Positions 8,500 through 24,767 of a stretch of DNA of 64,000 bases are shown piece by piece; position 1 is the first letter of the stretch; each line of letters opens with the position of its first letter. The stretch lies in the NCBI GenBank assembly GCA_024760545.1, contig CP060501.1:868001-932000 (forward strand). The letters run 5' to 3'. The DNA comes from Nitrospira sp. (lineage in GTDB: Bacteria; Nitrospirota; Nitrospiria; Nitrospirales; Nitrospiraceae). A model generated the notes under the pieces. It was not told the DNA's origin and did not search any database. It saw nothing but the letters and a program-made list of their open reading frames with translations. The translations under genes were made by a program, and so were the position numbers.

Positions 8500-8504
8500 A
8501 ACTG

Positions 8505-9235: not shown

Positions 9236-10264
9236 CTACTGCTCTTCAGAGCTGGGTTCCGTCACAGCCCACACTCCCTTACTCTCTTTATAGATCTTGC
9301 CTCTCGATAGCAGCTGTATGCGGCTTAATGTTCTCTGGGCTGTTCTTTCGGTAATGCCAAAGCCTGATAAGTACGCTAGGATTTCCTCAGTTGCTGCATG
9401 CCTCTCAGTAGTTCTAGAAACGTAATCTTGTATCAACCTGTTGGCCTTCTCTACCTGGCTTTCTGGTCGCTGAGCATTTGACGTTTCGTTGAAACTTTCA
9501 AATTGCATGCTGATAGGCCTTTCATTCCCTTGACCTTCTTGAAAGGCTACAAGGAATGGTTTGACTTCCTCTGCTTCGCGCGATTTCACACACTGCACTT
9601 GCAACGCATTCCCCTTTCGCATAACCGCAAAGCCTGAATCAGCTCCAGCCAAAATATCGGTCGATCCGCTAGCTCTATGGCGGTTGTCATCCCAGCCGTT
9701 CGGGTTAGGCTTTCTCATGTGATGGGAGATGATAATAGTCTTCCCACTGACTCGAAGAGGTTGAAGATTACGCCAGAATGCGCCAACACTTTCCGCTTCA
9801 TTCTCACTGCCAACAATAACCCTTCGCAGCGTTTCAATGATGATGATGTCCGGGTCAAACTGCGATTGGTTAAGTGCCTCCAATAGCTGTCCTGCTCCGT
9901 CAGCATTAAACGTGATACCTACTTGGGACAGATGCGCAAACGGAATATCGCTCGCCCTGAAGTTCCTTTCGATCCCAAGCCGACGTATGCGTCGTTGCAA
10001 TGTCCTGCTATTCATTTCTTCATCGAGGTACAGAACTCTTGCTGGTGAAGGAACCTTGAACTGATTCAGCCAATGTTCCCCAGCTGCGATATGGAGTCCC
10101 ATATCAAGCAATAGCCATGATTTCATCGAGCCATATTCACCGTAAATGATCACCCGATCACCTTTCGCAATGACCGGCTCTATGACCCATTCAACTGGTG
10201 CCAGTTCCGATTCCATGATTTTCGCAAATAGGACAAGTGGGAGTGGTATTTGTAGTGCGGGCAT
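9236..10264 (-). CDS. RepA-like AAA ATPase (KaiC/DnaB-fold)
   Basis: A 342-aa protein whose first 210 residues form a RecA-fold ATPase like plasmid RepA hexameric helicases. The P-loop is an unusual GEYGSMKS, followed by VLYLDEEMN and the Walker B-like strand DIIIIETLRR; a sensor-like IIISHHMRK follows. The C-terminal third holds a predicted winged helix (EEILAYLSGFGITERTAQRT). In mobile elements such proteins load at origins and support autonomous replication of the excised circle. A good AAGAGGAGATAGCT precedes the ATG. With the gene upstream it probably forms the replication module of element 1. Confidence 0.75.
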   Translation of the reverse strand: MPALQIPLPLVLFAKIMESELAPVEWVIEPVIAKGDRVIIYGEYGSMKSWLLLDMGLHIAAGEHWLNQFKVPSPARVLYLDEEMNSRTLQRRIRRLGIERNFRASDIPFAHLSQVGITFNADGAGQLLEALNQSQFDPDIIIIETLRRVIVGSENEAESVGAFWRNLQPLRVSGKTIIISHHMRKPNPNGWDDNRHRASGSTDILAGADSGFAVMRKGNALQVQCVKSREAEEVKPFLVAFQEGQGNERPISMQFESFNETSNAQRPESQVEKANRLIQDYVSRTTERHAATEEILAYLSGFGITERTAQRTLSRIQLLSRGKIYKESKGVWAVTEPSSEEQ

Positions 10265-10418
10265 AGCTATCTCCTCTTCAGCAAATGTTTTCAGCGTTTG
10301 TCACTTCAAAAAGTCGCTGCAGCTTGCTGGGAGGATATCGTTGCAAGAAAAATGGAACCAGACTGGATAAATTGAAACTGAATTGTTCAGGGGGACAAAA
10401 TGGGAACGAATTTATCGG

Positions 10419-11120
10419 CTAGGCTGTTGGTGGGAGAAAGTCAGCGATCTCAGCTCTCAGTTCCTTTTCAACGTCAAGATTCTGGGGTGAAGTAGGAGGA
10501 AGGTGAAATAAGGCTCCTATATCAAGCGTTCCGTCAATCGCGGCTGTGCGCGTCAAATGCCAGCCTTTCATAAATTTCTGGCCTGGGGATAGTGATTTTG
10601 CTAGCCGCAAATAGTTACGAATTGCCTTCATAGTTTTTGATGCATGTTTGTCGAAATACTTGATATCTGCACGTGGTAATTCTAAGTCAGGGAACACCTT
10701 CCCAGTTCTTTTAAGGATAACCCACATTCTTACATACTTTCTTATGGCATCCTGTTTGATGACATCCTGTGGTGACCGCTCAGCTTCGACAGTGTTTTGC
10801 ACAAGCCGGATAAGCCCGCCTTGCGTAATGTGTCTAGCGACAGGACGTCTCAATTCATGGTTCCATAGAATTTTGAACACATCTGCTCTTTCGGAAGGTC
10901 TACCGCGCTGCCTCTTGGGATCATGCCGTCTGATCCATAATGCCCTCGCATTGGTCAAGAATGCTTTCAATGTCTTTGCATCTTCAATCAAAAGCATTTT
11001 TGAGGATACAACCGACTTCCATTCATCTGGTGCAACTTCGTAGTCCAAATCCATTTCTACTCCGTAATGTCTGACGAAGTCTGCAATGGTCCATCTGTTC
11101 AGAATCTTTTGGTTTGGCAT
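10419..11120 (-). CDS. Unrecognised element 1 protein, possible replication accessory
   Basis: A 233-aa, mostly helical and basic protein; no catalytic motif or known domain is recognisable. It begins MPNQKILNRWTIADFVRHYG, carries a basic stretch (RRHDPKRQRGRPSE, an AT-hook-like RGRP) and ends in an acidic tail. The AT-hook-like segment suggests DNA binding, by inference only. It is on the same strand and 155 bp upstream of the RepA-like ATPase. The next gene to its other side is the divergent hamA, so it forms the outer edge of the core module before the cargo. Confidence 0.6.
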   Translation of the reverse strand: MPNQKILNRWTIADFVRHYGVEMDLDYEVAPDEWKSVVSSKMLLIEDAKTLKAFLTNARALWIRRHDPKRQRGRPSERADVFKILWNHELRRPVARHITQGGLIRLVQNTVEAERSPQDVIKQDAIRKYVRMWVILKRTGKVFPDLELPRADIKYFDKHASKTMKAIRNYLRLAKSLSPGQKFMKGWHLTRTAAIDGTLDIGALFHLPPTSPQNLDVEKELRAEIADFLPPTA

Positions 11121-11334
11121 TCCACACACCCCGTTTCCTCATACAGCAACTCACACAAAATCCGATCTGCCATTGAGGAGATGTTTTAATAAATTGGATT
11201 ATCTCTAATAGAACGGCCCTAGGCCTCGCAACCGTCAGGACTTGCTAGTTATCTGATAACCACCTAAAATACCCACAATTATGACATAAGCCCAGACTGC
11301 ATGGTTAGCACTTAATCTGACTTCTAAAACCAAC

Positions 11335-12291
11335 TTGCATCCTGCATCACAACAAAAATCCGAGGTCGATCTTACCCCCCACCTAAATAAGCTATTACAG
11401 ATTCCACATGACACCTTAGACGCGTTTATACACTGCGTTGCCAGAACGACTGTCTTACCGAGCACCAAAGCGAATGTGCGATGCTACTGCCTCGCACTCG
11501 ATGGCTCTGGCAATCCACGGGTAAAGGATTTCATAGAAGAACTCGCAGTTCACTCGTTGACCTATGCAATACCGCGCAGTCGAATCGAAAAAGCAAAGGC
11601 TAGTGGAATTCCTGCCGAGTTGATTAGATTGGGGAATGAAGCCCGCAAACTATTTACTTACCTTCTAAATAGTGGAGAAGGAGGAGAGCTGCTGCTTTAT
11701 CTGCTCGCAGAGAAGCTCCTTAAACTTCCGCAGCTCCTTTGCAAAATGCCACTTAAGACCAGCGCTGCCATGCATGTTCACGGCAGTGATGGTATACACG
11801 TGGGCGTCACTGAAGATACGAAACAACTAGCTCTTTACTGGGGTGAGGCAAAGTTGCATAAAACTCCAGCTAGCGCCATAGCAAGCTGTATTAAAGATAT
11901 TGCTCCATATCTCCTTGACGCAGGTGGCAGTGAAGCAGCTCAAAATCGCGACCTCCAACTGCTTAGAGATCAACTAGACCTCAACAACCCTGATCTTGAA
12001 ACCGCCCTTAAGATTTTGCTGGATAAGAGCAATCCGCATTACAACAAAGTAGAATTTCGAGGGTTAGGCCTGATTGGATTTGACAATGAGCTATACCCAG
12101 TTGAGCCAAATAAAAAGACTATTGAGGGTCTTGCTGCTGAAATTAGTAGTGAGATGAGCTTGTGGAATAGTCTGATTGCAAGAAATATTAAGAATGAAAG
12201 TCTTACTTCATTTCGCCTAGAGTTGTTCTGTTTCCCCTTTCCTTCAGTAGAGGAATATCGCGAAAGATTTAAAAAGGAACTAGGTATATAA
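11335..12291 (+). CDS. hamA: Hachiman nuclease subunit HamA (DUF1837)
   Basis: A 318-aa protein of the DUF1837 family. The N-terminal half has the family segment CYCLALDGSGNPRVKDFIEE and YAIPRSRIEKA. The PD-(D/E)xK-type nuclease site is visible as Asp152 in HGSDGIHVG, and Glu171 and Lys173 in LYWGEAKLH. HamA is the DNA-cleaving effector of Hachiman; together with the helicase HamB it attacks DNA during phage infection (established for the family). The start is TTG at 11335; no ATG is available upstream and this start fits the family N-terminus. The gene for HamB follows at once, separated by one base, on the same strand. The codons are AT-richer than the flanking chromosome. Confidence 0.9.
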   Translation: MHPASQQKSEVDLTPHLNKLLQIPHDTLDAFIHCVARTTVLPSTKANVRCYCLALDGSGNPRVKDFIEELAVHSLTYAIPRSRIEKAKASGIPAELIRLGNEARKLFTYLLNSGEGGELLLYLLAEKLLKLPQLLCKMPLKTSAAMHVHGSDGIHVGVTEDTKQLALYWGEAKLHKTPASAIASCIKDIAPYLLDAGGSEAAQNRDLQLLRDQLDLNNPDLETALKILLDKSNPHYNKVEFRGLGLIGFDNELYPVEPNKKTIEGLAAEISSEMSLWNSLIARNIKNESLTSFRLELFCFPFPSVEEYRERFKKELGI

Positions 12292-12292
12292 A

Positions 12293-14896
12293 TTGGGAAA
12301 AGCAGAATTACAGGGCTGGCTAGCAGAACGGTCATTCTTTAAGAGAGATGTTAGGAATGTCGTCGCAACCTCTGTCCTTAAACAATTTAAACAAGTCGAA
12401 CCTGTTGAAGATTATAAGCGTATAGAGCACGACTGGAATCACCTACTGTTATGCGCCAGCCTATTGGCGCAATCCAACAACGAAGCTCATCAAGACACCT
12501 CGCTGCGAATTGCTCAGCATTGCTTAAATGATGGTTCAAGCAGAGGACAGCATAAGGATGCTGCCGCAGTAATTTTGGACTGTCTCGGCAATCGAATCGC
12601 TATCGAGTTAGCCGAAAGCCGCAACATAATACCCGCAGGAATTGATGAAAGATTGCCTCCTCCTCTCCGTATGGACTGGACCGCACGAGCAATGGAATAT
12701 TCGCTAGCGCTAAATACCGATAAGATCTTGCACTTGAATAAATTCCAACGTTCGTTTTGGGATGCCATTAATGAAAGCGATTGGCTTAGCCTCTCTGCCC
12801 CAACATCAGCGGGAAAGTCTTTCATTATGTCTAACTGGATTTCTCACTATGCAAGAGAACACTTGGAGTCAACTATCGTTTACCTGGTGCCAACTCGTGC
12901 ACTCGTTCAACAAGTAGAAGAAGATTTACGGCGTTGTTTTGAAGAAGCTAACCTTACCTTATCGATTCATGTTTCCTCAGTACCACTTCATTCTAGCATC
13001 AGGCCCGGTGTGGCTAATGTACTAGTCTTCACTCAGGAAAGATTGCATCTCCTACTTGCTTCTACCAATTACGAAATGCAAATCACCTCCTTGATTGTTG
13101 ACGAAGCACAAAAGTTGGGAGACGGTTATCGTGGGATATTGCTGCAGTCGGTCATAGAAACCTCTTTGGCAGCAAATCCAGGTATGAAACTTATATTTGC
13201 AGCACCAATGGCTGACAACATTGAATCGCTGATCGAGCAAGATCAGCTCCAGGATGAGCCTCAGAGAAAGACGCGGGCAATATCAAATGATGCCCCCATG
13301 GTTAACCAGAACCTCCTTTGGGTATCTCATGTCCCAGGTAGACCCAAGGAATGGAACATGGATCTTATCCTGGAGGGCGAGCCAACAGCCATTGGTAGGT
13401 TTGTAATGCGATTTGCTCCTACATCGACAAGTAAGCGACTCACTTTTGTGGCTTCTGCTCTTGGAGGTAACGAGGGGGGCAATCTTATTTATGTTAATGG
13501 AGCAGCGGAGGCGGAAAAGATAGCTAAGCAGCTTTATGGGATTCTCCCACCTCTGTCACCTCAACAACAGTTAGAAGTAGCAGGATTGATACAGTTATCT
13601 AGAACTGTAGTTCATCAAGAATACCTGCTAGGTACTGTCGCATCGAGGGGCATCGCGTTTCACTATGGAAACATGCCACTTCTTTTGAAATCAGAAATCG
13701 AAAGGCTTTTTCGCGCAAACATAATTAAATATCTGATTTGCACATCCACACTTCTAGAAGGTGTAAACCTGCCATGTAGAAACGTATTTGTTCGAGGACC
13801 AAGAAAGGGCAGAAATACACCGATGAAAGACGCCGACTTCTGGAATCTGGCTGGAAGAGCTGGACGGTGGGGTCAGGAGTTTCAAGGAAACATAGTCTGC
13901 ATAGATCCTCATGACTCTAAGGTATGGAGGTTGCCTGCACCTAGGATAAGACATAAATATACAATTCAGCGTACCTCCGATGAGGTCCTACGCCATCCCA
14001 CTGATCTAATCGAGTTCATTGAGAATGGAACCCCAAGGACGACGGCCATGCAACGGCCTGACTTAGAGTATTCATTCTCTTACTTGGTTTCGACGCAGTT
14101 AAGATTTGGCTCAATTTATAACACCCCCTGGACACATAAATTACCGAATGGGAACATTCAAGATCTGCAGACAATGATTGAGAACATTTGTTCGAACCTA
14201 AACCTACCTGCTAGCATAGCGACCCGCAATCCTGGGATCAGCCCACTCGCCATGGAAAATCTGTTGGCTTATTTTCGTGAAGAAGAATTGGACCCGCAAA
14301 AATTCGTACCAATTCCATCTGAGAGCGACCAGGCCGTTCTGCAATATACAATGTTACTGTCCAGGATTAATAAGACCCTTGGGCCTGTATTTGGTCATGC
14401 GGGGCGAACATATGTCTTAGGTCTGCTCATTACAAATTGGTTGGAGGGACATCCTCTCGCTAGATTAATTTCTGAGAGGATCAATTACTTAAGGAGAATG
14501 GATCGTCCCGCAAATATTGCAAAGGTAATAAGAGACACTATGGCAGACGTGGAACAAGTAGCCAGATTCGAAGCCCCTAAATATATTGGCTGTTATGTAG
14601 ACGTGTTGAGCTTCCATCTAAAATCAATACATAGGGAAGACTTAATTGAACCCATAAAAGATATAGCTCTTAGACTAGAGTACGGCATCAATAGCACTAC
14701 ACAGCTATCCTTGATTAGCCTAGGTCTATCCCGCACTACCGCTGTGGCACTGGCGGAGATCATACCAAACGATGAATTAACGGAATTCGAGTGCGTTTCG
14801 TGGTTAAGAGACAACCGACAGCTATATAACGATCTCTCACCGGTTATAAAGGCAGAAATTGAAACAAGCCTCCATCAGAACCCTGAATCATTTTGA
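12293..14896 (+). CDS. hamB: Hachiman helicase subunit HamB
   Basis: An 867-aa superfamily 2 helicase. Motif I is APTSAGKS (169-176). Motif II is DEAQ (270-273) rather than DEAH or DExH. Motif Ia lies in VPTRALVQQ, and the C-terminal RecA lobe has TSTLLEGVNLP and the motif VI region FWNLAGRAGRWG. A helical region precedes the helicase core and a long helical domain follows it. In Hachiman, HamB binds HamA and senses DNA, releasing the nuclease (family knowledge). The start is TTG, one base after the hamA stop, so the two are translationally coupled. The length and the HamA partner make the assignment firm. Confidence 0.9.
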   Translation: MGKAELQGWLAERSFFKRDVRNVVATSVLKQFKQVEPVEDYKRIEHDWNHLLLCASLLAQSNNEAHQDTSLRIAQHCLNDGSSRGQHKDAAAVILDCLGNRIAIELAESRNIIPAGIDERLPPPLRMDWTARAMEYSLALNTDKILHLNKFQRSFWDAINESDWLSLSAPTSAGKSFIMSNWISHYAREHLESTIVYLVPTRALVQQVEEDLRRCFEEANLTLSIHVSSVPLHSSIRPGVANVLVFTQERLHLLLASTNYEMQITSLIVDEAQKLGDGYRGILLQSVIETSLAANPGMKLIFAAPMADNIESLIEQDQLQDEPQRKTRAISNDAPMVNQNLLWVSHVPGRPKEWNMDLILEGEPTAIGRFVMRFAPTSTSKRLTFVASALGGNEGGNLIYVNGAAEAEKIAKQLYGILPPLSPQQQLEVAGLIQLSRTVVHQEYLLGTVASRGIAFHYGNMPLLLKSEIERLFRANIIKYLICTSTLLEGVNLPCRNVFVRGPRKGRNTPMKDADFWNLAGRAGRWGQEFQGNIVCIDPHDSKVWRLPAPRIRHKYTIQRTSDEVLRHPTDLIEFIENGTPRTTAMQRPDLEYSFSYLVSTQLRFGSIYNTPWTHKLPNGNIQDLQTMIENICSNLNLPASIATRNPGISPLAMENLLAYFREEELDPQKFVPIPSESDQAVLQYTMLLSRINKTLGPVFGHAGRTYVLGLLITNWLEGHPLARLISERINYLRRMDRPANIAKVIRDTMADVEQVARFEAPKYIGCYVDVLSFHLKSIHREDLIEPIKDIALRLEYGINSTTQLSLISLGLSRTTAVALAEIIPNDELTEFECVSWLRDNRQLYNDLSPVIKAEIETSLHQNPESF

Positions 14897-15177
14897 TACA
14901 TGACGAATCATTTATGATTCACCATATCCGCAAACAGTAGGTTTCGCGCCTCATCAAACTCGTGGCTATATTAGGCTTTAGTTCTTCGGATCAGGATGGC
15001 GTGATCCTTGCCTCAATCTGCAACTTTAGAAACTTGACAGAAGGTATTAATGCCCAAAGTCTATGCCTGGGGAAACGCTCAAACCAATCCTGTTAAATCA
15101 GGGAATCTATCGGCGTTTCAATACGTTATGAATCGCGACCATTTAAATGCCATCATATTTTATATAGGCTCTAGAAA
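14897..15177. other. Gap between Hachiman and the Hxs operon
   Basis: No convincing gene. A small hairpin GAATCAT-TT-ATGATTC lies just after the hamB stop (about 14905-14925) but has no U-run. A 46-codon frame from about 15051 has AGAAGG in front of its ATG, yet its composition gives no support. The right end carries the Hxs promoter. Confidence 0.4.
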
Positions 15178-15201
15178 TTCTTTTTCGTAGGGGCATATAA
15201 T
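15178..15201 (+). promoter_or_regulatory. Candidate sigma-70 promoter of the Hxs operon
   Basis: A perfect -10 box TATAAT lies at 15196-15201, with a weak -35-like TAGAAA about 18 bp upstream. This would leave a leader of roughly 40 nt before the ATG at 15246. It is the only good -10 box before the precursor gene. Confidence 0.45.
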
Positions 15202-15245
15202 TTCGCCCGCATACCTAGAGTGCTTGGACTTTGAAGGAGGACGCC

Positions 15246-15548
15246 ATGCCCTACAACAAATTCCTCGTCCCGGTTAGCGCTCTGCTGGCAGGGCTCATTC
15301 CTGCGAAGCTGCAAGCTACCCCTGCTGTTCCGGGTGATCTGATTCCTAGCGAATTGGTTCAGGAACGGGATCCTTCTACCCCCACTCCAAACGACACAGT
15401 GTTAATGAACCTTCAGTACATGCTTAAGACCGAATTGCACAGTCTCATTCTTCGTCAATCTCAAACAGGTACTCTTTATGCCGGACATGGTTCGCACATG
15501 TCGCACTCTTCTCATGCATCGCACTCTTCTCACCGATCTGGGTACTAA
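15246..15548 (+). CDS. hxsA: His-Xaa-Ser repeat precursor (HxsA-like), first copy
   Basis: A 100-aa protein with an N-terminal signal-like hydrophobic segment (FLVPVSALLAGLIPAKLQA), a linker, and a C-terminal tail of six His-Xaa-Ser units that ends HSSHRSGY. The His-Xaa-Ser tail is the defining feature of the Hxs system, in which HxsB, HxsC and HxsD are thought to modify the repeat protein; the chemical product is unknown. The ATG at 15246 follows AAGGAGG at ideal spacing; a TTG frame starting 5 codons earlier would bury that site. It is the first gene of the operon hxsA-(hxsA2)-hxsD-hxsB-hxsC. Confidence 0.85.
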   Translation: MPYNKFLVPVSALLAGLIPAKLQATPAVPGDLIPSELVQERDPSTPTPNDTVLMNLQYMLKTELHSLILRQSQTGTLYAGHGSHMSHSSHASHSSHRSGY

Positions 15549-15560
15549 ACAGATTTGGCG

Positions 15561-15653
15561 ATGAAAACCTTCGTGCTACCTATCAGCGCTGCAATTGCTG
15601 CTCTCCTCTCCCAAACCCTTCCTATGCAAGCCAACGTGATACCAATGGAATAA
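15561..15653 (+). CDS. 30-aa signal-peptide-like ORF before the second precursor
   Basis: MKTFVLPISAAIAALLSQTL followed by PMQANVIPME resembles the N-terminus of the first HxsA (FLVPVSALLAGLIP...LQA) and stops at 15653. The His-Xaa-Ser tail resumes in another frame 8 bp later. So either this is the 5' half of a precursor split by a frameshift, or a separate tiny ORF. Frame 2 is open throughout this stretch, which is compatible with one lost or gained base. Confidence 0.45.
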   Translation: MKTFVLPISAAIAALLSQTLPMQANVIPME

Positions 15654-15661
15654 GGACAGAC

Positions 15662-15823
15662 ATGGACTTCTCTCGATCTACATTTGCCATGTTGTCAATT
15701 CAGAACCATCTATCGTCGTTACAGTTGGCCTGCCAACAGTTTGGTATAAAGCTGGCCACACACAGTTCACATCGGTCCCATTCATCGCATCGATCGCATA
15801 GCTCTCATCGGTCTGGACTATAG
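15662..15823 (+). CDS. His-Xaa-Ser repeat precursor, second copy (53 aa, possibly frameshifted)
   Basis: A 53-aa ORF starting MDFSRSTFAMLSIQNHLSSL and ending in six perfect His-Xaa-Ser units with the same terminal HRSG motif as the first precursor. The middle part (LQYMLKTELHSLILRQ in copy one, LSIQNHLSSLQLACQQ here) is also comparable. As read, the ORF lacks the hydrophobic N-terminus, which lies just upstream in another frame (15561-15653). It is 37 bp upstream of hxsD on the same strand. It may be a cytosolic minimal substrate, or a pseudogene produced by a one-base shift. AAGGACAGAC before the ATG offers a usable ribosome binding site. Confidence 0.65.
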   Translation: MDFSRSTFAMLSIQNHLSSLQLACQQFGIKLATHSSHRSHSSHRSHSSHRSGL

Positions 15824-15860
15824 AAGCTGCATCCTGGTTCCATTTGGAGATCCTCTTTTA

Positions 15861-16160
15861 ATGAATTCCATATTTGTCGAATTTGACCTCAACGCATTTT
15901 CGTTGAATGTCGTGAAGTTGGCTGCATACCGATATCTCCATCTCTTTACAACAGATATCATGGTCAACGATCAGCGCATTCAGTGCGCACTGCAATTTGC
16001 ATCTACGCTAAGTCAAGACAAGACACAGCAGATCGTGAACGATTTTAAGAAGGAAGTCTTGGATCAGGACTTGAGAGAAAGACTAAAGGCCGAAACTGAG
16101 ACCGTAAGGAACCTCATTTTGGCCCATGCTTTTTCTAAAACTGGTTTGGCGGACCAATGA
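15861..16160 (+). CDS. hxsD: His-Xaa-Ser system protein HxsD
   Basis: A 99-aa protein that matches the small partner of the Hxs radical SAM pair. It starts FVEFDLNAFSLNVVKLAAYR and has near its C-terminal half NDFKKEVLDQDLRERL, close to the LLNDYxLRE signature by which the HxsD family is known. Its biochemical role is unestablished; position suggests a binding partner or chaperone for the precursor or the maturases. Its stop overlaps the hxsB start in ATGA, so translation is coupled. TTGGAGA precedes the ATG. Confidence 0.85.
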   Translation: MNSIFVEFDLNAFSLNVVKLAAYRYLHLFTTDIMVNDQRIQCALQFASTLSQDKTQQIVNDFKKEVLDQDLRERLKAETETVRNLILAHAFSKTGLADQ

Positions 16161-17614
16161 GCCATTTCCAAGGGATTGAAAGCTATCATCCCGCCATTGC
16201 GGAATATCATCTGCTGCCATTTCGCTTTAGCCATCTGCAACATGAACAATATGTCCTTTCCAACCTTGCAGGGGAATACCTCGTATTAGACCGCGACGCC
16301 TTATTGGATTTAGTCACACATCGGTTAGATCAGAACAATCCTATCTATACCGATCTACGAGCCCGACACTTTCTCATGGATTCTAGTACTTCGATTGCAC
16401 CCACACTAATAAGTCTAAAACTTAGGACGCGCTACCAGAGACTAGCGGAATTCACCACCCTTCACATTTTCGTAGTCACACTTCGATGTGAACATGCTTG
16501 TCCTTATTGCCAGGTTTCAAGACAGTCGGAGGATACCCTCAGTTTTGACATGAGCCAGGAAGCTGGTAGTGCAGCGATTGATCTCGCCTTAAAGTCACCT
16601 GCTCAACTTCTCAAATTTGAGTTTCAAGGTGGAGAGCCGCTACTGAACTTCCGATTGATCCAATCGATTGTCTTAGAGGCTAAGGGGAAAGCCGAACGAT
16701 TGGGGAAGCAGCTCACGTTCGTGATTGCCACCAATTTGGCTTTGATGACCAAAGAGATCCTAGATTTTTGTCGAGAGCACTCAATTTTGATCTCCACATC
16801 TCTTGATGGCCCACGCGAACTTCACAATACTAATAGACCGCGTCCTGGTGATGACAGTTATGAAAGGACTGTTCGGGCCATTGCCTTGGTGAGAGGAGCT
16901 TTGGGACCTGATCGTCTCTCAGCGTTAATGACGACTACCGAAGCAAGCCTCTCCCAGGCTAAGGAGATCATTGATGAATATATGTCACGAGGTTTTCCCG
17001 GCATTTTTCTGCGAGCACTCTCACCCTATGGCTTTGCGATAAAGACTAGGTCTTACCGTGCCTATAACACAGAGCGCTGGTTGCGCTTCTACAAGGAGGG
17101 CATCGAATACATTATTGAACAGAACAGACAGGGGCGCGATTTTGTTGAGTACTATGCGGCAACCATTCTCAAGAAGATGTTCACAAGTGAAGACCCTGGA
17201 TATGTCGATCTAACAAGTCCAGCAGGCATTGGAATTGGAGCGATTGTCTACAACTATGACGGGTCCATCTATGCTTCTGATGAGAGTCGGATGCTCGCTG
17301 AGATGGGCAACGACCATTTCAAGCTTGGTCATGTCCTGACACATTCCTATAAAGACATCTACACGTCGCCACGACTCCTGGAGGCGTTGGAAGAGTCATT
17401 TGCCTATAGTGCTCCGATGTGTCACGACTGTGCGTTTGAACCATTCTGTGGAGCTGATCCGGTGTTTCACTATGCGACCTCTGGAGACTATGTCGGCAGA
17501 AAGCCGGAATCGGAATACTGTAACCGCAACATGGAGATAATAAAGTTTCTAATTTGCAGGATGGAGGAGGATCGTTTTGTCCGACAGCTATTCACGAAAT
17601 GGGCGAATCGTTGA
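16157..17614 (+). CDS. hxsB: Radical SAM/SPASM maturase HxsB
   Basis: A 485-aa radical SAM enzyme. The [4Fe-4S]-SAM cysteines are Cys111, Cys115 and Cys118 in LRCEHACPYCQ, followed by the GGEPLL SAM-binding motif. A C-terminal SPASM-type cluster region contains MCHDCAFEPFCGADP and a late Cys in SEYCNR. An N-terminal domain of about 100 residues precedes the barrel, as in peptide-modifying maturases that carry a recognition domain. It should modify the His-Xaa-Ser tail by radical chemistry; the reaction is not known. The gene overlaps hxsD (ATGA) and hxsC (TGATG), forming a tightly coupled operon. Confidence 0.9.
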   Translation: MSHFQGIESYHPAIAEYHLLPFRFSHLQHEQYVLSNLAGEYLVLDRDALLDLVTHRLDQNNPIYTDLRARHFLMDSSTSIAPTLISLKLRTRYQRLAEFTTLHIFVVTLRCEHACPYCQVSRQSEDTLSFDMSQEAGSAAIDLALKSPAQLLKFEFQGGEPLLNFRLIQSIVLEAKGKAERLGKQLTFVIATNLALMTKEILDFCREHSILISTSLDGPRELHNTNRPRPGDDSYERTVRAIALVRGALGPDRLSALMTTTEASLSQAKEIIDEYMSRGFPGIFLRALSPYGFAIKTRSYRAYNTERWLRFYKEGIEYIIEQNRQGRDFVEYYAATILKKMFTSEDPGYVDLTSPAGIGIGAIVYNYDGSIYASDESRMLAEMGNDHFKLGHVLTHSYKDIYTSPRLLEALEESFAYSAPMCHDCAFEPFCGADPVFHYATSGDYVGRKPESEYCNRNMEIIKFLICRMEEDRFVRQLFTKWANR

Positions 17615-18771
17615 TGCTGAAGCTTAACGGACATTTACCGATGCTACAGACCGCAACACGAGATGCCTATCTTGTTACGGTCACCACGAATGACACCCTT
17701 CCTTCAGACTTAAGAAGTGGTCGAGCATTAATGATGGGGCCGGGCTTGGATCCTGAAGGCTTCAAGGCAGTACTCGTGAAGGAACGAGTGGATGCCGTAT
17801 CGACTACTGATTCAAAGCGCGATGTCTTCCTACTGTCCAATGACTATGACTATTTGGATGAAGGGGACATCTTGCGGCTTGATCCGAACACGGGGGCAAT
17901 GCGCTGCTTGCATCGCAGAAACTCTCATCACAATACGATCCTCTTAACCGAGCGTTGTGACCATTATTGTTTGATGTGCTCGCAACCGCCAAAAGAAATT
18001 GACGATGCATGGTTATTGGATGAAGCTAAGAATCTCATCTCGCTGATTCCTCGCGAAACCCAGCACCTAGGATTCTCCGGTGGTGAGCCGACCATGTATG
18101 GAGAACGCTTTATTGAATTGCTTCAGCACACAAAACACTGTCTTCCTACTACTGCAATCGATGTCCTTTCAAATGGGCGAGCCTTTAAAGATATTGATTT
18201 CACAAGGAGCTATGCGGAGGTAAATCACCCCAACCTCATGATGGCAATCCCAATCTATTCCGATGATCCGGTCAGGCATGACTATGTTGTACAAAGCAAA
18301 GGCGCATTTGATGAAACGGTTCTCGGTATCCTGAACCTAAAATCTCTGAATCAACGGGTAGAGATACGAATTGTCATTCACAAGCAAACCGTGGATCGCC
18401 TTGTTAATACCTGCCAGTTCATTGCTCGCAATCTCCTATTCGTGGATCATGTTGCCCTTATGGGATTGGAGATAACTGGTTTCACACGCACTAATCTGGA
18501 AACGCTTTGGATTGACCCGTACGAGTACAAAGACATTTTGAGCGAGGCCATCACAACATTGAATTCCTATGGCATTCCAGCCTCAGTATATAACCATCAA
18601 CTCTGCACCATTAATTCTGATGCTATGAATAACTACCGCAAGTCTATCAGCGATTGGAAAAATGAATATCTTGAGGAGTGCGGCGCATGTACGAAGAGAG
18701 ACATATGCGGAGGCTTATTCAGTTCATCAAAGAAGTACAAACACAGTGCTTACATTAAGGCATTTCTGTGA
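17614..18771 (+). CDS. hxsC: Radical SAM enzyme HxsC
   Basis: A 385-aa radical SAM protein with the CxxxCxxC motif at Cys115, Cys119 and Cys122 (TERCDHYCLMCSQ) and a downstream GGEPTMY SAM-binding segment. A late cysteine cluster (CGACTKRDICGG) suggests an extra iron-sulfur or zinc site. It is the second enzyme of the Hxs pair, expected to act with HxsB on the His-Xaa-Ser precursor. The ATG at 17614 overlaps the hxsB stop as TGATG. Longer in-frame readings into hxsB are rejected because this overlap is the natural junction. Confidence 0.88.
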   Translation: MLKLNGHLPMLQTATRDAYLVTVTTNDTLPSDLRSGRALMMGPGLDPEGFKAVLVKERVDAVSTTDSKRDVFLLSNDYDYLDEGDILRLDPNTGAMRCLHRRNSHHNTILLTERCDHYCLMCSQPPKEIDDAWLLDEAKNLISLIPRETQHLGFSGGEPTMYGERFIELLQHTKHCLPTTAIDVLSNGRAFKDIDFTRSYAEVNHPNLMMAIPIYSDDPVRHDYVVQSKGAFDETVLGILNLKSLNQRVEIRIVIHKQTVDRLVNTCQFIARNLLFVDHVALMGLEITGFTRTNLETLWIDPYEYKDILSEAITTLNSYGIPASVYNHQLCTINSDAMNNYRKSISDWKNEYLEECGACTKRDICGGLFSSSKKYKHSAYIKAFL

Positions 18772-18801
18772 ACACCGCTTAAGCGATTGCCTGAAAGGGA
18801 C

Positions 18802-19380
18802 ATGATGAAGTATTTCCCTCTCATACTCACGTTAACTGGCATGTTGTTGAGCTTATGGGCACTTCCCTCCATAGCTGTGGAAGTAAATCCATCTGCAGAG
18901 ATGATTGATGGCGCAATTAAGGACGGAGATACCAACCGAGAGAGTCAAGGAATTGAGGGAACAACAAACCGCTTTGGTAAGTATGATTCTATCTGCGGTG
19001 GATGGGGATTTCTTCAGACAAAACTATGGAATGTGCGAGAGACGAGCAAGGGCAATGCAAGGAAAATGAAAGCTACGCAGGCCATAGACATTGAACAGTA
19101 TCTATCAGCTAAAACGATGCTCGTCACGTATGCCTTCTGTAGCATATCGTTCAAACCAACTGACCACCATGTAGTTTTGAAACAAGGAAACAGGGTAGTC
19201 CAACCTGTCAAAGTCTCCGTCTCTCGCCCTGAGTATGTAAGCTCCAACACTTACATGCATACCGTCCAAGCGCACTTCAGCTATGACAGCTTTGATCCCA
19301 TAGCAGAAACCATCCTGATTGTAATTCCCAGCGTTGAGGAGAAAAGAGAGTACGGCTTAAATCTTGCTGAGTATCGATAA
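18802..19380 (+). CDS. Secreted protein of unknown function, Hxs operon neighbour
   Basis: A 192-aa protein with a clear signal peptide (MMKYFPLILTLTGMLLSLWA then LPSIAVE). The mature part has two or three cysteines (SICGGWG, TYAFCSISF) and looks beta-rich, but no family is recognised. The ATG at 18802 follows GAAAGGGA. It starts 30 bp after hxsC on the same strand, so it may be co-transcribed; an exported protein next to a precursor with its own signal-like segment could be a partner, which is inference. It ends 2 bp before the broken thermonuclease gene. Confidence 0.6.
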   Translation: MMKYFPLILTLTGMLLSLWALPSIAVEVNPSAEMIDGAIKDGDTNRESQGIEGTTNRFGKYDSICGGWGFLQTKLWNVRETSKGNARKMKATQAIDIEQYLSAKTMLVTYAFCSISFKPTDHHVVLKQGNRVVQPVKVSVSRPEYVSSNTYMHTVQAHFSYDSFDPIAETILIVIPSVEEKREYGLNLAEYR

Positions 19381-19382
19381 CG

Positions 19383-19845
19383 ATGCCTTCCTTGAAAACA
19401 GCTCTCATCCTTGCTTTCCTCCATTGCACCGCCATAGCGGCATTCTCGTTTACTGGCCAAGTGGTAGCAATCGTTGATGGTGACACAATTGAGGTACTCC
19501 ACAATCTAAAAGCGGAACGTATCAGACTCAATGGCATTGACTGCCCTGAGAAGAGCCAAGCCTACGGTAAGAGTGCCAGGCAAGCTGCCTCCACCTTAGT
19601 CTTTGACAAGGAAGTCACCCTTCAAATTTACGGCAAGGATTGATATGGGCGCTTCCCTCGCCGAGGTACTGCGTTCAGAAGGAACGAACATCAATCACGA
19701 ACTGGTCAAAGATGGGTGGTGCTGGTGGTGTCGGCAATATGCTCCAGCTGATATGGTTCTAGAAGGTTTGGAGAGTGGAGCACGAGCGGCAAGGAAGGGC
19801 TTATGGAACGATCCTAACCCAATACCGCCGTGGGAATGGCGATAG
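19383..19845 (+). pseudogene. Broken thermonuclease (SNase-like) gene
   Basis: An SNase fold is clear on both sides of the lesion: a signal peptide, then VVAIVDGDTIEVLHNLKAER and RLNGIDCPE, later SLAEVLRSEGTNINHELVKDG and RKGLWNDPNPIPPWEW. Between them the expected GKDxYGR segment is hit twice: the codon after GKD is TGA at about 19641, and one extra base then shifts YGR into another frame. Two independent lesions make recoding unlikely. The intact relative lies at 37336-38043 and a third fragment at about 30913. It follows the secreted-protein gene directly. Confidence 0.85.
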
Positions 19846-20149
19846 AGGGCAAGTTTAAACTATGGGTAATGGGTAATCAAACTGCCCTTTCCACCTTGGC
19901 TAGTAATCTAGATGCAGGAATGGACAAACCTCGTGAAAGTCTCAAAATCACACTAAGCGTAGATGGTTTCAAACCTCGCTCAAGCTGGCTTATGTAGGTT
20001 CCGTGGACTTCCAGGTAAAACCGTTAGTTCGGTGCTTCAACAGCGGTGAGCGCATATTGAGTCAAGATAGATTCTTAAGGGGTGGCCACTTGAAGACCTA
20101 AAATAATCCGCATTACAATTGCCGCTCTTGAAAAAGTGGAGGAGATATT
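19846..20149. other. Gap without recognisable gene
   Basis: About 300 bp between the broken nuclease and the next gene. I see no ORF with a start signal and no strong hairpin. AGTGGAGGAGATATT in front of 20150 is the ribosome binding site of the next gene. Confidence 0.4.
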
Positions 20150-20920
20150 ATGGCATCGATACTACAAAAGAACATATTCGGTATTGGAAAGTTTAATAAT
20201 TATCTGGTCGCTGGAAATATCTGTAATGCATTCGCTCTCGGCGAACTGGGTTCGACAGAAGACTTCTTCCTTGTCGGTGCTGAGCCGCCAGATGAATCGA
20301 GCTTTCCTTTACTGACGGGGAACTTATTAGATTCGGATGGTAAGGTCTTATTTCGTTTGGTGAGGAACATACTAATGATCAACCCTGGTCATTGCTCAAA
20401 AGTTATCGGGGATCACATAGGATATGAAATACACGATAGCAATGGCGTTCAAATTCTAAAAGTCGCGACCCGCTTTGAAAAGTTACCCGGTAATCTGCCC
20501 GAGTGTTATGTTACTACGATGTCGGTCAATTGTTTTGATAAGTCTGGAAAGCTCGTATTTAAAGGTCAGTCTGGAGAGGAGGATGAGCATATTGAATCGA
20601 GTGTTAAATCGTTATTTGGACTCGATCAAACTTTTGGTGCTGTTCAAGGGTTCACAGATGAAGAGCTGGAAATGGCAAGGGCAATGCTTTTGTCAGGCGG
20701 TCGCATTCATAAAGTTTTATCGGGCTCCATTCAGGGCCAAGACATTTGTCTAGATGGTGTCGCGTTGAATAACGCACATATAGACAACTGCAACATTAGT
20801 GTTTCGTCAACTGACTTTATGTTTATTGGGAAAAGCAGCAGTTTTTCTAATTCTAGATTTCAGTTTATTGGAGGAGCTAGCCTGATCAAAGACTTAGTGC
20901 TAAGGATGAGCGCGTCATAG
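20150..20920 (+). CDS. Unrecognised 256-aa element 1 cargo protein
   Basis: The ATG follows GTGGAGGAGATATT, a good site. The product starts MASILQKNIFGIGKFNNYLV and has a beta-rich N-terminal half (LTGNLLDSDGKVLFRLVRNI, then alternating strands). The C-terminal half has a repetitive look (IQGQDICLDGVALNNAHIDN), reminiscent of beta-solenoid or pentapeptide-like folds, but the repeats are weak. There is no signal peptide or membrane segment. It is the last gene before the right end of element 1, a position where defence or fitness cargo is often found. No function can be assigned. Confidence 0.6.
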   Translation: MASILQKNIFGIGKFNNYLVAGNICNAFALGELGSTEDFFLVGAEPPDESSFPLLTGNLLDSDGKVLFRLVRNILMINPGHCSKVIGDHIGYEIHDSNGVQILKVATRFEKLPGNLPECYVTTMSVNCFDKSGKLVFKGQSGEEDEHIESSVKSLFGLDQTFGAVQGFTDEELEMARAMLLSGGRIHKVLSGSIQGQDICLDGVALNNAHIDNCNISVSSTDFMFIGKSSSFSNSRFQFIGGASLIKDLVLRMSAS

Positions 20921-21173
20921 TCTCCGGGAGTAGACGGAACAGTTCGCCCCAAATTTTATCTGACGTGAACAGGGCTGTCTGTCGCTCGACATCTTTTTAG
21001 ATTATCACTATACCTATAGAATCCTTTATATCCGCCGTGTATCGCCTTTTACCTGAATGGCCCCAGGCCCACAGCTAAGTACCTAGCACAAGGGTGGCAC
21101 CCCACCTCATAACCTCCAAGTTCCAGCGCATTGCTTGCCGTCAGCTCGGCTATACGGATTTAGACACTCAGTA

Positions 21174-21194
21174 CAGGTGTTATTACAGTGTTAG
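21174..21194 (+). repeat. Element 1 end repeat, right copy
   Basis: Identical 21-bp copy of 6944-6964, 131 bp before the attR core and in the same orientation. It supports an arm-type integrase site at both ends of element 1. Confidence 0.6.
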
Positions 21195-21233
21195 GAATTG
21201 GTACAAACAGGAAGGATTGGCGAAGAGAAACGC

Positions 21234-22586
21234 CTAAACGATGGGATAATGCAAAGTGCGAATCGCCACAATAGGCGGGAGGATTGCCCAGGTCTTCAAT
21301 GACTTGAGCAATCCCCTTTCACTGATTTGTAAACCGCAGGTTGGAGGTTCGATTCCTCTCGCCAGCTCCATACCTTTCATTGATATTTCAGGTAATTGCA
21401 ATTTCGATCCAGTCCGTGTGTTCTTTGCAGAGGCTCCGCTTGCTACCACTTTGCTACCACTAACTAACGCAGCGGCGGAAATTACCTGAAGAGAATCCAA
21501 CCGATCCAACGCGCCAGGAGCTTTCTTCTTCAGCCAACGGCCATAGGTTGAAACGGTCAGTTCAATAGTGGCGTGACCTAACTGCTCTTGCACATAAACG
21601 GGGCTGATACCGTCCGCAAGTAATATCGAGGCGTAGGTATGCCGGAGAGAGTGCGGTGTGAAATGCGTCGGTAGCTTTGCCTTTTTCAAAATAGATTGCA
21701 TCGCTTTTCTAACATTAGCTGCATCTAAAGGCGTTCCAGCTTTCGTTACAAAGAGCCAGGGCGGAAGCTCAGCCCAACCATACTTAAGCTTATCCTCTTT
21801 GCGCGTCGTATCCTGCGTGGCCAGGGCTTGCGTCAACGTTTGAGAGATATCAACTGTCCGGCCATGGCCACACTTCGGCGTCCCAAGTTCGCCATCTTCG
21901 CAAAAGGCACGGCCAATTCGGATTGTTTTTGAGGGGATGTCCACATCCTCTGCTTGTAGCGCCAAAGCTTCTCCAAGTCTCATACCCGTCCCAGCCAAGA
22001 CAAAGAAGAACGGATAGTAGCGAGGCGCTTCGCGCATTGCCGTCGCCAAGAAGATTTGGCGTTGCTCTATGGTCAAGGCTTTGATTTCTTCCTGAGTAGC
22101 GGATTTCGAAAAGGTCAACTTGAGCGTTCGTCCTAGCTTCGATGCAGGGTTAGAAATGATCAGTCCGTCGTCAATCGCCGCGTTCAGCATTGCCCGTAGA
22201 ACCGCCTGAATGTTACGGACGGTCCGCTTTTCAAGTCCCTCGTTCAACTTCTCCGCCAACAACAGTTTGATACGTCCACGATCTAGCTTTTGAACCGTAA
22301 CTTTCTCAAACCGAGGCAGAATATGGAGCGTGAGAATTTCCGAGTAACGGTTGAGAGTACGTGACTTTACCGTCTTTCCGATCAACTTCTTCCAGTGATC
22401 GCTATAATCCTTTATATTAATATTGGCCGGAACAGTCGGATTAAGTCGCTGGCGGGATTCCGGTCCAACCTTATCGCGATGTGCATCTGCATCGGTCTTT
22501 TTGTGAAAAGTCTTCCAGTGGCGTACTCCGGATCCATCGCGCCAATCAACTACATATTTACCTCGTCGCTTCCTTACACAGGCCAT
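21234..22586 (-). CDS. int: Tyrosine integrase, element 2; 3' end runs across the att core
   Basis: A 450-aa tyrosine recombinase: an N-terminal arm domain (MACVRKRRGKYVVDWRDGSG), a core-binding domain (about 60-165), then catalytic residues Arg in GTGMRLGEALAL, His-x-x-Arg in PHSLRHTYASILL, the late His in QLGHATIE and Tyr in TVSTYGRWLKK. It should act on the same tRNA-Thr site as element 1. The ATG at 22586 follows AAGGGAGA. The recombinase fold ends near LDRLDSLQ; the remaining tail of about 80 residues is encoded over the arm repeats and straight through the att core (ELARGIEPPTCGLQ is antisense tRNA). Its stop therefore lies in the neighbouring element, and the tail must change with each integration context. 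Confidence 0.9.
   Translation of the reverse strand: MACVRKRRGKYVVDWRDGSGVRHWKTFHKKTDADAHRDKVGPESRQRLNPTVPANINIKDYSDHWKKLIGKTVKSRTLNRYSEILTLHILPRFEKVTVQKLDRGRIKLLLAEKLNEGLEKRTVRNIQAVLRAMLNAAIDDGLIISNPASKLGRTLKLTFSKSATQEEIKALTIEQRQIFLATAMREAPRYYPFFFVLAGTGMRLGEALALQAEDVDIPSKTIRIGRAFCEDGELGTPKCGHGRTVDISQTLTQALATQDTTRKEDKLKYGWAELPPWLFVTKAGTPLDAANVRKAMQSILKKAKLPTHFTPHSLRHTYASILLADGISPVYVQEQLGHATIELTVSTYGRWLKKKAPGALDRLDSLQVISAAALVSGSKVVASGASAKNTRTGSKLQLPEISMKGMELARGIEPPTCGLQISERGLLKSLKTWAILPPIVAIRTLHYPIV
21282..21313 (+). repeat. Conserved hairpin beside attR of element 1
   Basis: GATTGCCCAGGTC and GACTTGAGCAATC form a 13-bp stem (one mismatch, one wobble) around a 6-nt loop, ending 12 bp before the att core. 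Related hairpins sit at 29408-29439 beside the decayed att and at 42501-42532. A structural role in recombination, or a terminator guarding the end, is possible. Confidence 0.55.
21326..21370 (+). repeat. att core between elements 1 and 2
   Basis: A 45-bp copy of the tRNA-Thr 3' part without mismatch. It is attR of element 1 and attL of element 2. Confidence 0.95.
21440..21459 (+). repeat. Element 2 arm-type repeat, left
   Basis: TTGCTACCACTTTGCTACCA contains two TTGCTACCA units in tandem and matches 26509-26528 at 19 of 20 positions, same orientation. It lies 70 bp inside the left core and within the integrase 3' end. It is a likely integrase arm site. Confidence 0.6.
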
Positions 22587-22613
22587 ACTCACTCTCCCTT
22601 GTGAGCTGCTTGT

Positions 22614-22985
22614 TTAGATCGTTCCTTTGGTCCTTTGGCCTTTCTTGTGTGGCCGTCCCAGTAGGTAGAGTGCGAACTCCCTCGCACCGCGCATCCGTTG
22701 CTCGAATGCCCCCTTAATGTTTTCGTCTGCCAGGTGCAGCGCGAAACCTTTTAGACTTTCTTCAACGAACCGATCAAAAGGAGCCATAATTCCGCCCTTC
22801 CCTCTGTTAGCTAGGATTGTAATAAGTCGGGCAGCAGGTTCGTAAATGTCAATCTCGTTACGTTCCCATCGTGCGACTGTATTCGCTGTGACACCTATCT
22901 CATCCGCCATGCGATCCTGTGTCCAACCAAACTCTTCACGAATTGTTCTTAGCTCGCTTCCAGTCATGAGACCCATTCTATACAT
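22614..22985 (-). CDS. HTH regulator of element 2 (Xre/MqsA-type)
   Basis: A helix-turn-helix occupies about residues 8-60 (GSELRTIREEFGWTQDRMAD, then VTANTVARWERNEIDIYEPA), very like the DNA-binding half of MqsA-type antitoxins and related Xre regulators. The 60-residue C-terminal part is basic and helical. It lies 27 bp upstream of the integrase on the same strand. An imperfect dyad TATAC-ATAAC-GTATA overlaps the upstream start region. Three possible starts exist: 22985, 22976 and 22967. The last, ATG before ACTGGAAGC, keeps the whole HTH and leaves the dyad outside the gene. It probably controls its own transcription and that of the integrase. Confidence 0.75.
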   Translation of the reverse strand: MYRMGLMTGSELRTIREEFGWTQDRMADEIGVTANTVARWERNEIDIYEPAARLITILANRGKGGIMAPFDRFVEESLKGFALHLADENIKGAFEQRMRGAREFALYLLGRPHKKGQRTKGTI

Positions 22986-22993
22986 AACGTATA
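22979..22993. promoter_or_regulatory. Candidate operator upstream of the element 2 regulator
   Basis: TATACATAACGTATA is a 5-bp dyad with a 5-bp spacer, overlapping the longest possible start of the regulator gene and a TATA-rich -10-like region. It is consistent with self-repression. Confidence 0.35.
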
Positions 22994-23150
22994 TACATCG
23001 TCAACCTATCTGTGCCGCCATTCCGATCAGCTTGTAGGCGTGAAGTAACTTGAAGGGGCCTCAACAGTCGGGAGCAGATTAATCTAGCTAAAGCGCAGTC
23101 ATCAGTAACTTGCTATGCGATAAGCTGAAGGTCACGTACTAGCAGAAGAG

Positions 23151-24767
23151 TCACTGTTCAATTGTGTCCCATTGGTTCGTCAATGTGGCATATCCAAGGT
23201 CTACATAGGCGTGAAATTGCTCTGCGGAAAAGTTCTGTTTCGTTGTGGGAAAGTGCGGGAAATCTGGATCGCATTCTTTGCTAACTGCCTTTCGTTTTTC
23301 ATACCAGCTTTGAACAGTAGAAGAATACTTTTTCCCAAGAGCGCTTTTAGCAGCGCTGTCTCGGGATGCGAGGTCGAACTCCTTATTGTCCACCGCCATT
23401 TTTATGTAAACAACGCGCAGTGTGTTATTCCCATCCCCGAGAGGAAAAGGACCGACTCTTCCGATCATTACAGGGCGATGCTTGTTAAACGAAAGTTGTA
23501 GCGGACAAATCTGATCACTGCTGGGGTGAGGCTTCGGATTGACGCAGAGCGTCCTTGGAACGATGGAATCTATATCCTCAATTTTCAGGTCTACATCCAT
23601 TTCTTTGCTTAAGGCGTCTCGCAGGCCACGATAATCACAAAATTCATATTGCGGATCATATCCGGCGTCAACGACGATGATCTCTTCACATAACCGGCGA
23701 ATGGCAGTATATGCGCCTAGGTTGTCAATAAAACCTCCATCGGCAAGATATACACCGGATTCTTTTTCAAGCGGCATATACCCGCCGAGGCTTGCCTCTG
23801 TGAGTTGAACCGCGATTTGCGAATAATGGCTGTCTTCGTGGGTTGCGTCTACGGCAGCGCCGGATAAACGTGCAACTCGGTCGATCCTAGTCCAACCAGT
23901 CTCTGAATTTTCGGGGTTCCAGGGATAAAATCCCACCGCATCGGAACCCATATACGATGGGGTGATTTCGAAGATTCGTGGCCCCCACTTTGTATAAGTC
24001 CTGTCAGGAACGACAAGCGCCGAATTGAAAACGACGGTAGGCAGGTGATGCGAACTTACGATTTCCTTAATATCGGGCATCGCCGTCACATAAATCTTTC
24101 CAGAAGGGGCGGTTAGAAACGCTCTTCTGATGGCCGTCTCATATTGAATCTGAAACCATGTTGCATCTACATACATTATCCTGCCATCCATGATCTGCGC
24201 GAGAGCGAACATTGTACCACTTAGATATCTAAGGGATGCACTAAGCATAGACCGAATGGAAGGCCACTGTACGAACTTTGCACGGTCCGCAACGTAATTA
24301 ATGTGTGTATCATCAAACAATGAACTTAGAGAACCCTCTGGGCTTGCATGCCTTTGAGTATAAAGCCACGCTGCCGCGTATGAACCGCCAGAAACGCTCG
24401 AAATAAGATCGAGGTTTTGTAGGCGCCCTTTTTCTTCTAGTGCTTTCATTACACCAATATTAAAAGCAGCTGATCGAATGCCACCACCTGAAAACGTAAT
24501 GCAGTACCGTGGGGTTCCTTGTCCAGCATTTTTATAATATTGCGCTTCAACTTGGCGATAGTGTGACAGTGCTTTCTCATTGTGTTCTGCTATCCGTAAG
24601 ACCTCTAGATTGGAGATGGATTCAACACGAACGCCCCGAACAACATTTGAATCCTCCCGAGGCGTAATGTTCGGTACGTTAGTGATGAATTGCCCGCAGC
24701 AGACAAGTGTGGAAAGCGTTAGGCAAAGAAGAGTCGCATTTGCTTTCCGGATGGAAGGATACTCCAT
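23151..24767 (-). CDS. Patatin-like phospholipase, probable lipoprotein
   Basis: A 538-aa protein with a lipoprotein-type start (ATLLCLTLSTLVCCGQ, Cys as lipid anchor). The patatin domain shows the oxyanion loop SGGGIRSAAFNIG, the nucleophile in SSVSGGSYAAAW (Ser of a GxSxG-like SVSGG) and the catalytic Asp in DGGFIDNLG. It should be a serine lipase with a Ser-Asp dyad, probably held on a membrane facing the periplasm. Patatins are frequent effectors in bacterial immunity (for example CBASS CapV), but those are cytosolic, so a different role such as envelope lipid attack or interbacterial antagonism is possible. It is the main cargo of element 2, upstream of no related partner except the 367-aa gene. 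Confidence 0.85.
   Translation of the reverse strand: MEYPSIRKANATLLCLTLSTLVCCGQFITNVPNITPREDSNVVRGVRVESISNLEVLRIAEHNEKALSHYRQVEAQYYKNAGQGTPRYCITFSGGGIRSAAFNIGVMKALEEKGRLQNLDLISSVSGGSYAAAWLYTQRHASPEGSLSSLFDDTHINYVADRAKFVQWPSIRSMLSASLRYLSGTMFALAQIMDGRIMYVDATWFQIQYETAIRRAFLTAPSGKIYVTAMPDIKEIVSSHHLPTVVFNSALVVPDRTYTKWGPRIFEITPSYMGSDAVGFYPWNPENSETGWTRIDRVARLSGAAVDATHEDSHYSQIAVQLTEASLGGYMPLEKESGVYLADGGFIDNLGAYTAIRRLCEEIIVVDAGYDPQYEFCDYRGLRDALSKEMDVDLKIEDIDSIVPRTLCVNPKPHPSSDQICPLQLSFNKHRPVMIGRVGPFPLGDGNNTLRVVYIKMAVDNKEFDLASRDSAAKSALGKKYSSTVQSWYEKRKAVSKECDPDFPHFPTTKQNFSAEQFHAYVDLGYATLTNQWDTIEQ

Follow-up and report, generated by a model that had tools for sequence, protein, structure and literature searches.

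The Hxs system, in which an HxsA or HxsA2 precursor is encoded together with HxsB, HxsC and HxsD, reportedly goes back to Haft and Basu 2011. This work is cited on Hxs in PMC9062424, and the literature that we searched offered neither a chemistry nor a purpose for Hxs, and no modified repeat product. Hxs can be compared with the triceptides, three-residue cyclophanes formed by radical S-adenosylmethionine (SAM)/SPASM enzymes, in which His is linked to Ala by HaaB or to Arg by YhhB (PMC11002830); the His-Xaa-Ser repeat of the Hxs precursors shares the aromatic-x-x spacing of these known His motifs. Here we describe an Hxs operon (15246–18771, + strand) in a stretch of 64,000 nucleotides from Nitrospira sp. 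(GenBank assembly GCA_024760545.1, contig CP060501.1, positions 868,001 to 932,000 of the forward strand), referred to as the window, and find that it is carried, along with a Hachiman defence system, as cargo of a 14.47-kb island integrated at a tRNA-Thr gene. The reading that we favour, with a probability of about 45%, is that exported, modified His-Ser peptides would act at the cell envelope, sometimes beside a secreted nuclease, and that conflict with incoming DNA or phage is a likelier role for them than core metabolism. Hxs is widespread, and comparison of its loci offers three handles: mobility, envelope-like precursors and nuclease or defence neighbours.

The Hxs operon and its precursors

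The window has all four components of the Hxs system as defined in NCBIfam and the tandem His-Xaa-Ser core, in the gene order A-D-B-C of other A2-type loci. The first precursor gene hxsA2 (15246–15548, +; NF038296, 77.6 bits against a cut-off of 48, in the frame open from 15231), hxsD coding for a small accessory protein (15861–16160, +; TIGR03976, 57.8 against 50 bits), the radical SAM maturase gene hxsB (16157–17614, +; TIGR03978, 596.6 against 370 bits) and hxsC coding for a second radical SAM maturase (17614–18771, +; TIGR03977, 389.8 against 267.9 bits) all (4/4) scored above the curated cut-offs, at the place and on the strand given by the initial annotation, whose naming of a His-Xaa-Ser precursor, HxsD and two radical SAM enzymes is borne out. 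HxsD matched in 0 of 14 control genomes. The CxxxCxxC motif is intact in HxsB (residues 111–118) and in HxsC, which also has a C-terminal Cys cluster. Judged from its sequence, this is a true Hxs operon of the A2 type. The head-to-tail overlap initially ascribed to all of these genes holds for hxsD/hxsB (4 bp) and hxsB/hxsC (1 bp, TGATG) and fails for the precursors, among which no overlap occurs, the second one being flanked by gaps of 113 bp and 37 bp. Because of the TGATG junction with hxsB, the start of hxsC was set at 17614 and not at the mechanically assigned 17554. HxsB, HxsC and HxsD belong to no PADLOC system of their own, and the pVip matches reflect the generic radical SAM core; a promoter and terminator search gave no signal above shuffles, and the tRNA was the sole RNA match in an Rfam search.

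The start codon of hxsA2 (ATG, 15246) is preceded by the ribosome-binding site ggagg, and the encoded peptide has a Sec-like N-terminus and a C-terminus made of six His-Xaa-Ser units, GHGSHMSHSSHASHSSHRSGY. The tripeptide register is kept strictly: among 38 precursor candidates, 185 of the 233 His-Xaa-Ser units were directly followed by another His, with Ser, Arg, Ala or Gly mostly found as Xaa. Two architectures were seen: a short HxsA2 encoded before hxsD, with the repeats at the C-terminus, and a long HxsA, mostly encoded after hxsC, with central repeats and a peptidoglycan-binding end (PG_binding_1 in L133). Both types have a basic and then hydrophobic N-terminal stretch that looks like a Sec signal. 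A typical cluster for a ribosomally synthesized and post-translationally modified peptide (RiPP) combines radical SAM maturases with a leader-bearing precursor; two such maturases and such a precursor are present here, and bacteriocins are commonly mobile cargo. An antimicrobial or signalling RiPP, exported to inhibit or signal to neighbouring bacteria, is nevertheless an unlikely product, as genes for a dedicated ABC transporter, a protease or immunity are missing from the window operon, and the Sec-like leaders together with the peptidoglycan-binding domain of the long precursor type argue for retention in the envelope and against release.

The window departs from other Hxs systems in two respects: copy 2 of the precursor is disrupted, and behind the operon, in the same direction, lies a broken thermonuclease gene. 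The second precursor (15561–15823, +) consists of a frame encoding the leader-like peptide MKTFVLPISAAIAALLSQTLPMQANVIPME (15561–15653), which ends at a TAA just upstream of the core, and of the core itself (15662–15823), which lies in a different frame, is without a leader and on its own scored 33.9 bits, below the HxsA2 cut-off of 48; the initial count of two His-Xaa-Ser precursors is thus right for the first and not for this frameshifted copy. In the relative RBC100 (L053) both tandem precursors, of 103 and 88 residues, are intact, the homologue of copy 2 being located at L053 4657–4923, and in another relative, G232 (L070), a mere remnant of copy 2 is left. The absent leader, the low score, the intact pair and the remnant point to decay of copy 2, which is most likely a spare precursor whose core was cut from its leader by a frameshift. 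The break may instead be a sequencing error, yet there is no homopolymer at this position.

The integrative island and the spread of Hxs

The last 44 bases of the tRNA-Thr gene (6825–6900) occur as exact copies at 6857, 21327 and 26627 (0 in 100 shuffles). The first attachment (att) repeat (6857–6900, +), the 3' end of the tRNA gene itself, marks the left end of island A, and the second (21327–21370, +), an exact 44-bp repeat, marks the right end of island A and the left end of island B. A tyrosine integrase gene of island A (6906–8039, −; PF00589, 104 bits) abuts the tRNA gene. Island A (about 6901–21370, 14.47 kb) has the features characteristic of tRNA-targeted islands: a tyrosine integrase is encoded beside the tRNA gene, and the 3' end of the tRNA is directly repeated at each border. 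In addition to the integrase gene, regulator genes and a gene for an AAA protein, it contains hamAB, the Hxs operon, a gene for a putative secreted protein without known family and the broken thermonuclease gene, and its G+C content is 0.46 compared to 0.54–0.57 in the surroundings. Genome G091, which belongs to the same species, has no HxsD, and at the same tRNA its att copies enclose a different element of 14.46 kb, behind which lies an integrase that shares 80% identity with the one of island A; the cargo at this site is therefore exchangeable. The assignment of Hxs to an integrative element thus gains support from the exact att repeats, the tRNA-Thr site, the tyrosine integrase, the lower G+C content and the alternative cargo in G091.

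Hxs is patchily distributed: HxsD was found in 2 of 79 Nitrospira genomes and 7 of 296 genomes of the phylum, in 4 of 370 genomes of the class of Herbaspirillum and in 11 of 397 of the phylum of Noviherbaspirillum. A tblastn search with HxsB retrieved 507 plasmid records, 348 of them with at least 80% of the query covered and 325 of the 507 from Klebsiella, as well as one Leptospira phage record. Scanning IMG/VR with an HxsB alignment yielded 13 loci, 12 of which were clear, the other (L127) being a weak 23% match; a scan of viral contigs with a single HxsB sequence found nothing. In the HxsB tree the window clusters with the Nitrospirota G232, RBC100 and G309, adjoining Acidobacteria and Herbaspirillum, and other Nitrospirota (G274, G322 and G244) fall into a distant clade alongside viral contigs, so that the tree mixes phyla. 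By its sequence relationships, this distribution is one of repeated horizontal transfer, in agreement with reports that hxsABCD are among the genomic-island genes of P. aeruginosa (PMC8446631) and that Hxs is a variable insert in V. parahaemolyticus (PMC6537148). Two further matches were rejected as Hxs systems: the HxsB-like protein of G018 (323 bits) has no adjacent HxsC or HxsD and lies with different radical SAM genes, and the match elsewhere in the genome of the window (G000:C1:2335144–2335284; L055 10151–10300) is a 48-residue hxsB relic, 66% identical and with an in-frame stop. This relic suggests that the same genome had gained Hxs and lost it before.

Mobility genes, defined as site-specific recombinases, transposases, relaxases and coupling proteins of type IV secretion systems within 9 kb, were present near 9 of 23 chromosomal Hxs loci and near 0 of 18 control stretches taken mostly from the same genomes (one-sided Fisher p 0.002); since part of the sample was found through similarity to the window, this and the other neighbour counts are indications and not rates. 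The comparison across genomes that had been proposed initially therefore did not return loci that are always chromosomal and free of any mobile link, the outcome named in advance as speaking against mobility, and the view of Hxs as mobile cargo stands on the att repeats, the low G+C content, the alternative cargo, the patchiness, the phylum-mixing tree and the presence of Hxs on plasmids and phage-like records. Hxs in this strain could also be a mere passenger of a decaying island, hitch-hiking without a current function, as the broken second precursor and thermonuclease, the earlier loss recorded in the hxsB relic and an island G+C content still unlike that of the surroundings would fit; with hxsA2, hxsD, hxsB and hxsC uninterrupted and the cluster Cys and overlapping junctions intact, we regard this as quite unlikely.

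A smaller second island, island B (21371–26670), lies in tandem at the same tRNA-Thr. It carries genes for an integrase (21234–22592), whose C-terminal residues are encoded by the tRNA-derived att repeat, a helix-turn-helix regulator, a patatin-like phospholipase (23151–24767) and a MauJ-domain protein (24990–26093).

Maturase models and expected chemistry

The model of HxsB (mean predicted local distance difference test score, pLDDT, 87) shows three strands followed by helices at residues 23–92, a radical SAM core and a SPASM-like C-terminus. Over the core and the C-terminus it is similar to the SPASM peptide enzymes anSME and CteB (PDB 4k36-4k39, 5wgg, 5why), and with CteB, a sactisynthase combining a RiPP recognition element (RRE) with a SPASM domain, the similarity includes the N-terminal region: the alignment with anSME (Z 34.5, 355 residues aligned) starts at residue 98, and that with CteB (Z 33.7, 393 residues aligned), known as a range only, at model residue 20. 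The modelled N-terminal domain of HxsB is RRE-like and may be an RRE. The second auxiliary Cys set (C422, C425, C431 and C455) is invariant in HxsB, which does not have both sets, as a conserved region of the YNYDG..YASDE type is found where the first auxiliary-cluster Cys of anSME and SPASM enzymes would be. The invariant Asp375 aligns with Asp277 of anSME, the proposed base, which comes behind the final Cys of the first auxiliary-cluster motif of that enzyme. HxsB is far below the cut-offs of the triceptide maturase families, none of which it reached (YhhB, 71.3 against 445 bits; GrrM, 52.5 against 310; AmcB, 55.2 against 425; FxsB, 49.4 against 370). The resemblance to SPASM enzymes and the alignment of Asp375, albeit without the first-cluster Cys, would lead one to expect, by analogy, that the radical chemistry takes place at Ser and yields an oxidised Ser or, alternatively, a His-Ser link akin to the His-to-Ala and His-to-Arg links of triceptides. 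HxsD was modelled (pLDDT 93) as a ferredoxin-like strand-helix-strand-strand-helix fold with weak ferredoxin or Pcc1-like matches; a stand-alone RRE was considered for it and is the less likely reading, as the strand order of the model differs and no PqqD-like protein is among the matches listed.

In the mechanism that we propose, HxsB would dock the HxsA leader in the cytoplasm via its RRE-like N-terminal domain, and HxsB and HxsC, assisted by HxsD, would abstract hydrogen from the His-x-Ser units, most likely at the Ser beta-carbon, to give an anSME-type oxidation or a short His-to-Ser cross-link. The small modified repeats would then leave via Sec and act in the envelope, and in the long HxsA type the peptidoglycan-binding domain would tether them there.

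Nuclease, defence and metal-related neighbours

The operon context extends to two genes that the initial annotation did not mention, a putative secreted protein without family assignment (18787–19380, +), which starts 15 bp past hxsC and has a signal-like N-terminal stretch as read by eye, and, directly behind it, a thermonuclease (SNase) pseudogene (19383–19845, +) with PF00565 in both of its pieces, an internal TGA, a frameshift and a signal-like N-terminus. Neither 18787–19380 nor a further gene of island A (20150–20920) matched a curated family. An SNase gene lies within about 3 kb of Hxs in five of the seven Nitrospirota loci (the window, L069, L070, L071 and L072) as well as at the plasmid loci L059 (Methylobacter) and L131 (Nostoc). 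In L069 the SNase gene stops 24 nt short of hxsD. That of L072, fused to a non-specific endonuclease domain, starts 22 nt past hxsA, and that of L059 starts 15 nt past hxsC. The Hxs-linked SNases share about 23–65% mutual identity, take differing positions and come from hosts in three HxsB clades, which suggests repeated pairing and not one inherited linkage. A null model with uniform placement (P about 2e-9 for five of seven Nitrospirota loci with an SNase) was discarded as too lenient, because SNases are cargo of Nitrospira islands, and the link is based instead on L069, L072 and L059, where the SNase gene lies close to Hxs on the same strand. In L069 (G274:C39, 5778–12114) a block of SNase, hxsD, hxsB, hxsC and a reversed hxsA with a G+C content of 0.35, compared to 0.43 around it, sits inside a broken comEC, the gene of the DNA-uptake channel: the block is preceded by DUF4131 and the beginning of the Competence domain and followed by the metallo-beta-lactamase part, and the Competence domain is partly lost. 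This interruption identifies the block as a unit that can be transferred and that encodes no integrase itself. New here are the repeated association of Hxs with nucleases and the disruption of the second precursor; the Hxs system and its vehicle are of known kinds.

Strong defence matches within 7 kb were found at 6 of the 23 Hxs loci and, at like strength, at 0 of 12 control stretches (one-sided p about 0.06): Hachiman in the window, RT-Toprim in L023, SoFic in L071, type IV restriction (GmrSD) in L089, a SIR2 protein (PDC-S65) directly adjoining hxsA in L091, and Thoeris ThsA/ThsB with an AriA-like ATPase in L094. Moreover, an OLD/Gabija-like pair of nuclease and helicase lies near Hxs on the Methylobacter plasmid, and an AbiE pair near Hxs on a Hymenobacter plasmid. 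The position of Hxs directly after hamAB is as initially described: the adjacent pair that identifies Hachiman (PMC12278908), with the nuclease gene hamA (11335–12291, +; PF08878, 186.8 bits; PADLOC HamA, 351.9 bits) and the helicase gene hamB (12293–14896, +; PADLOC HamB, 1004.7 bits), is complete and ends 350 bp upstream of the operon. Since HamA occurs at no other Hxs locus examined, a joint Hachiman-Hxs system was rejected; Hachiman is a separate defence system and its place beside Hxs, outside the operon, is incidental.

The initial annotation had left the purpose of the peptide between conflict and metal handling. Modified His-rich repeats might serve as periplasmic or cell-surface chelators of Cu, Zn or Ni, the operon spreading through metal tolerance, and there is some basis for this: the HxsA core is His-rich, noursin, a lanthipeptide with a His-to-butyrine cross-link, is selective for copper (PMC11002830, PMC10206099), and chrA and a superoxide dismutase gene lie near one plasmid locus and a TonB siderophore receptor gene at another. 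Yet these neighbours vary by locus, and among 210 neighbour proteins no family of metal transporters or metal regulators turns up repeatedly, which leaves metal handling improbable. A role in conflict, which the defence and thermonuclease neighbours support indirectly, is plausible and not proven. Several observations weigh against the envelope-conflict reading that we favour. The link to mobility is frequent and not universal, 14 of the 23 chromosomal loci being without a marker, and most Hxs loci are without an SNase. In the window the SNase and the second precursor are broken, so that neither is required there. G000 and G091 each have 12–13 SNases, several of them within about 10 kb of tRNA-Thr att copies without Hxs, so SNases in Nitrospira are island cargo anyway, and neighbourhood is weak evidence because islands gather defence genes and nucleases whatever their function. 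The first-cluster Cys ligands are absent from HxsB, which makes the transfer of chemistry from anSME or CteB uncertain; Sec export of the HxsA precursors was judged by eye, and modification of the repeats was demonstrated nowhere in this analysis.

A more specific proposal is that Hxs forms an envelope barrier to incoming DNA, in which radically modified His-Ser peptides, exported via Sec and in the HxsA architecture tethered to peptidoglycan, would cooperate with a secreted or periplasmic enzyme of the thermonuclease type, mobile elements carrying the two together so as to exclude phages or rival elements; we consider it very unlikely. SNIPE, a membrane nuclease that cuts phage DNA at injection (PMC13190303), offers a conceptual analogue only, that of an envelope-placed nuclease meeting incoming DNA, and the Hxs-linked nucleases are SNase-family proteins with signal-like N-termini. 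A functional nuclease link would point to a new means by which cells or mobile elements keep out incoming DNA; without such a link, Hxs would still be a mobile trait, travelling on islands, plasmids and phage-like elements, with a cargo value that can be tested. The SNase pairing provides a testable hint at the purpose of Hxs. Finally, a DUF6119 gene is found about 20 nt past hxsA at two loci of the enterobacterial type (L089, 12984–14594, and L090, 13055–14656).

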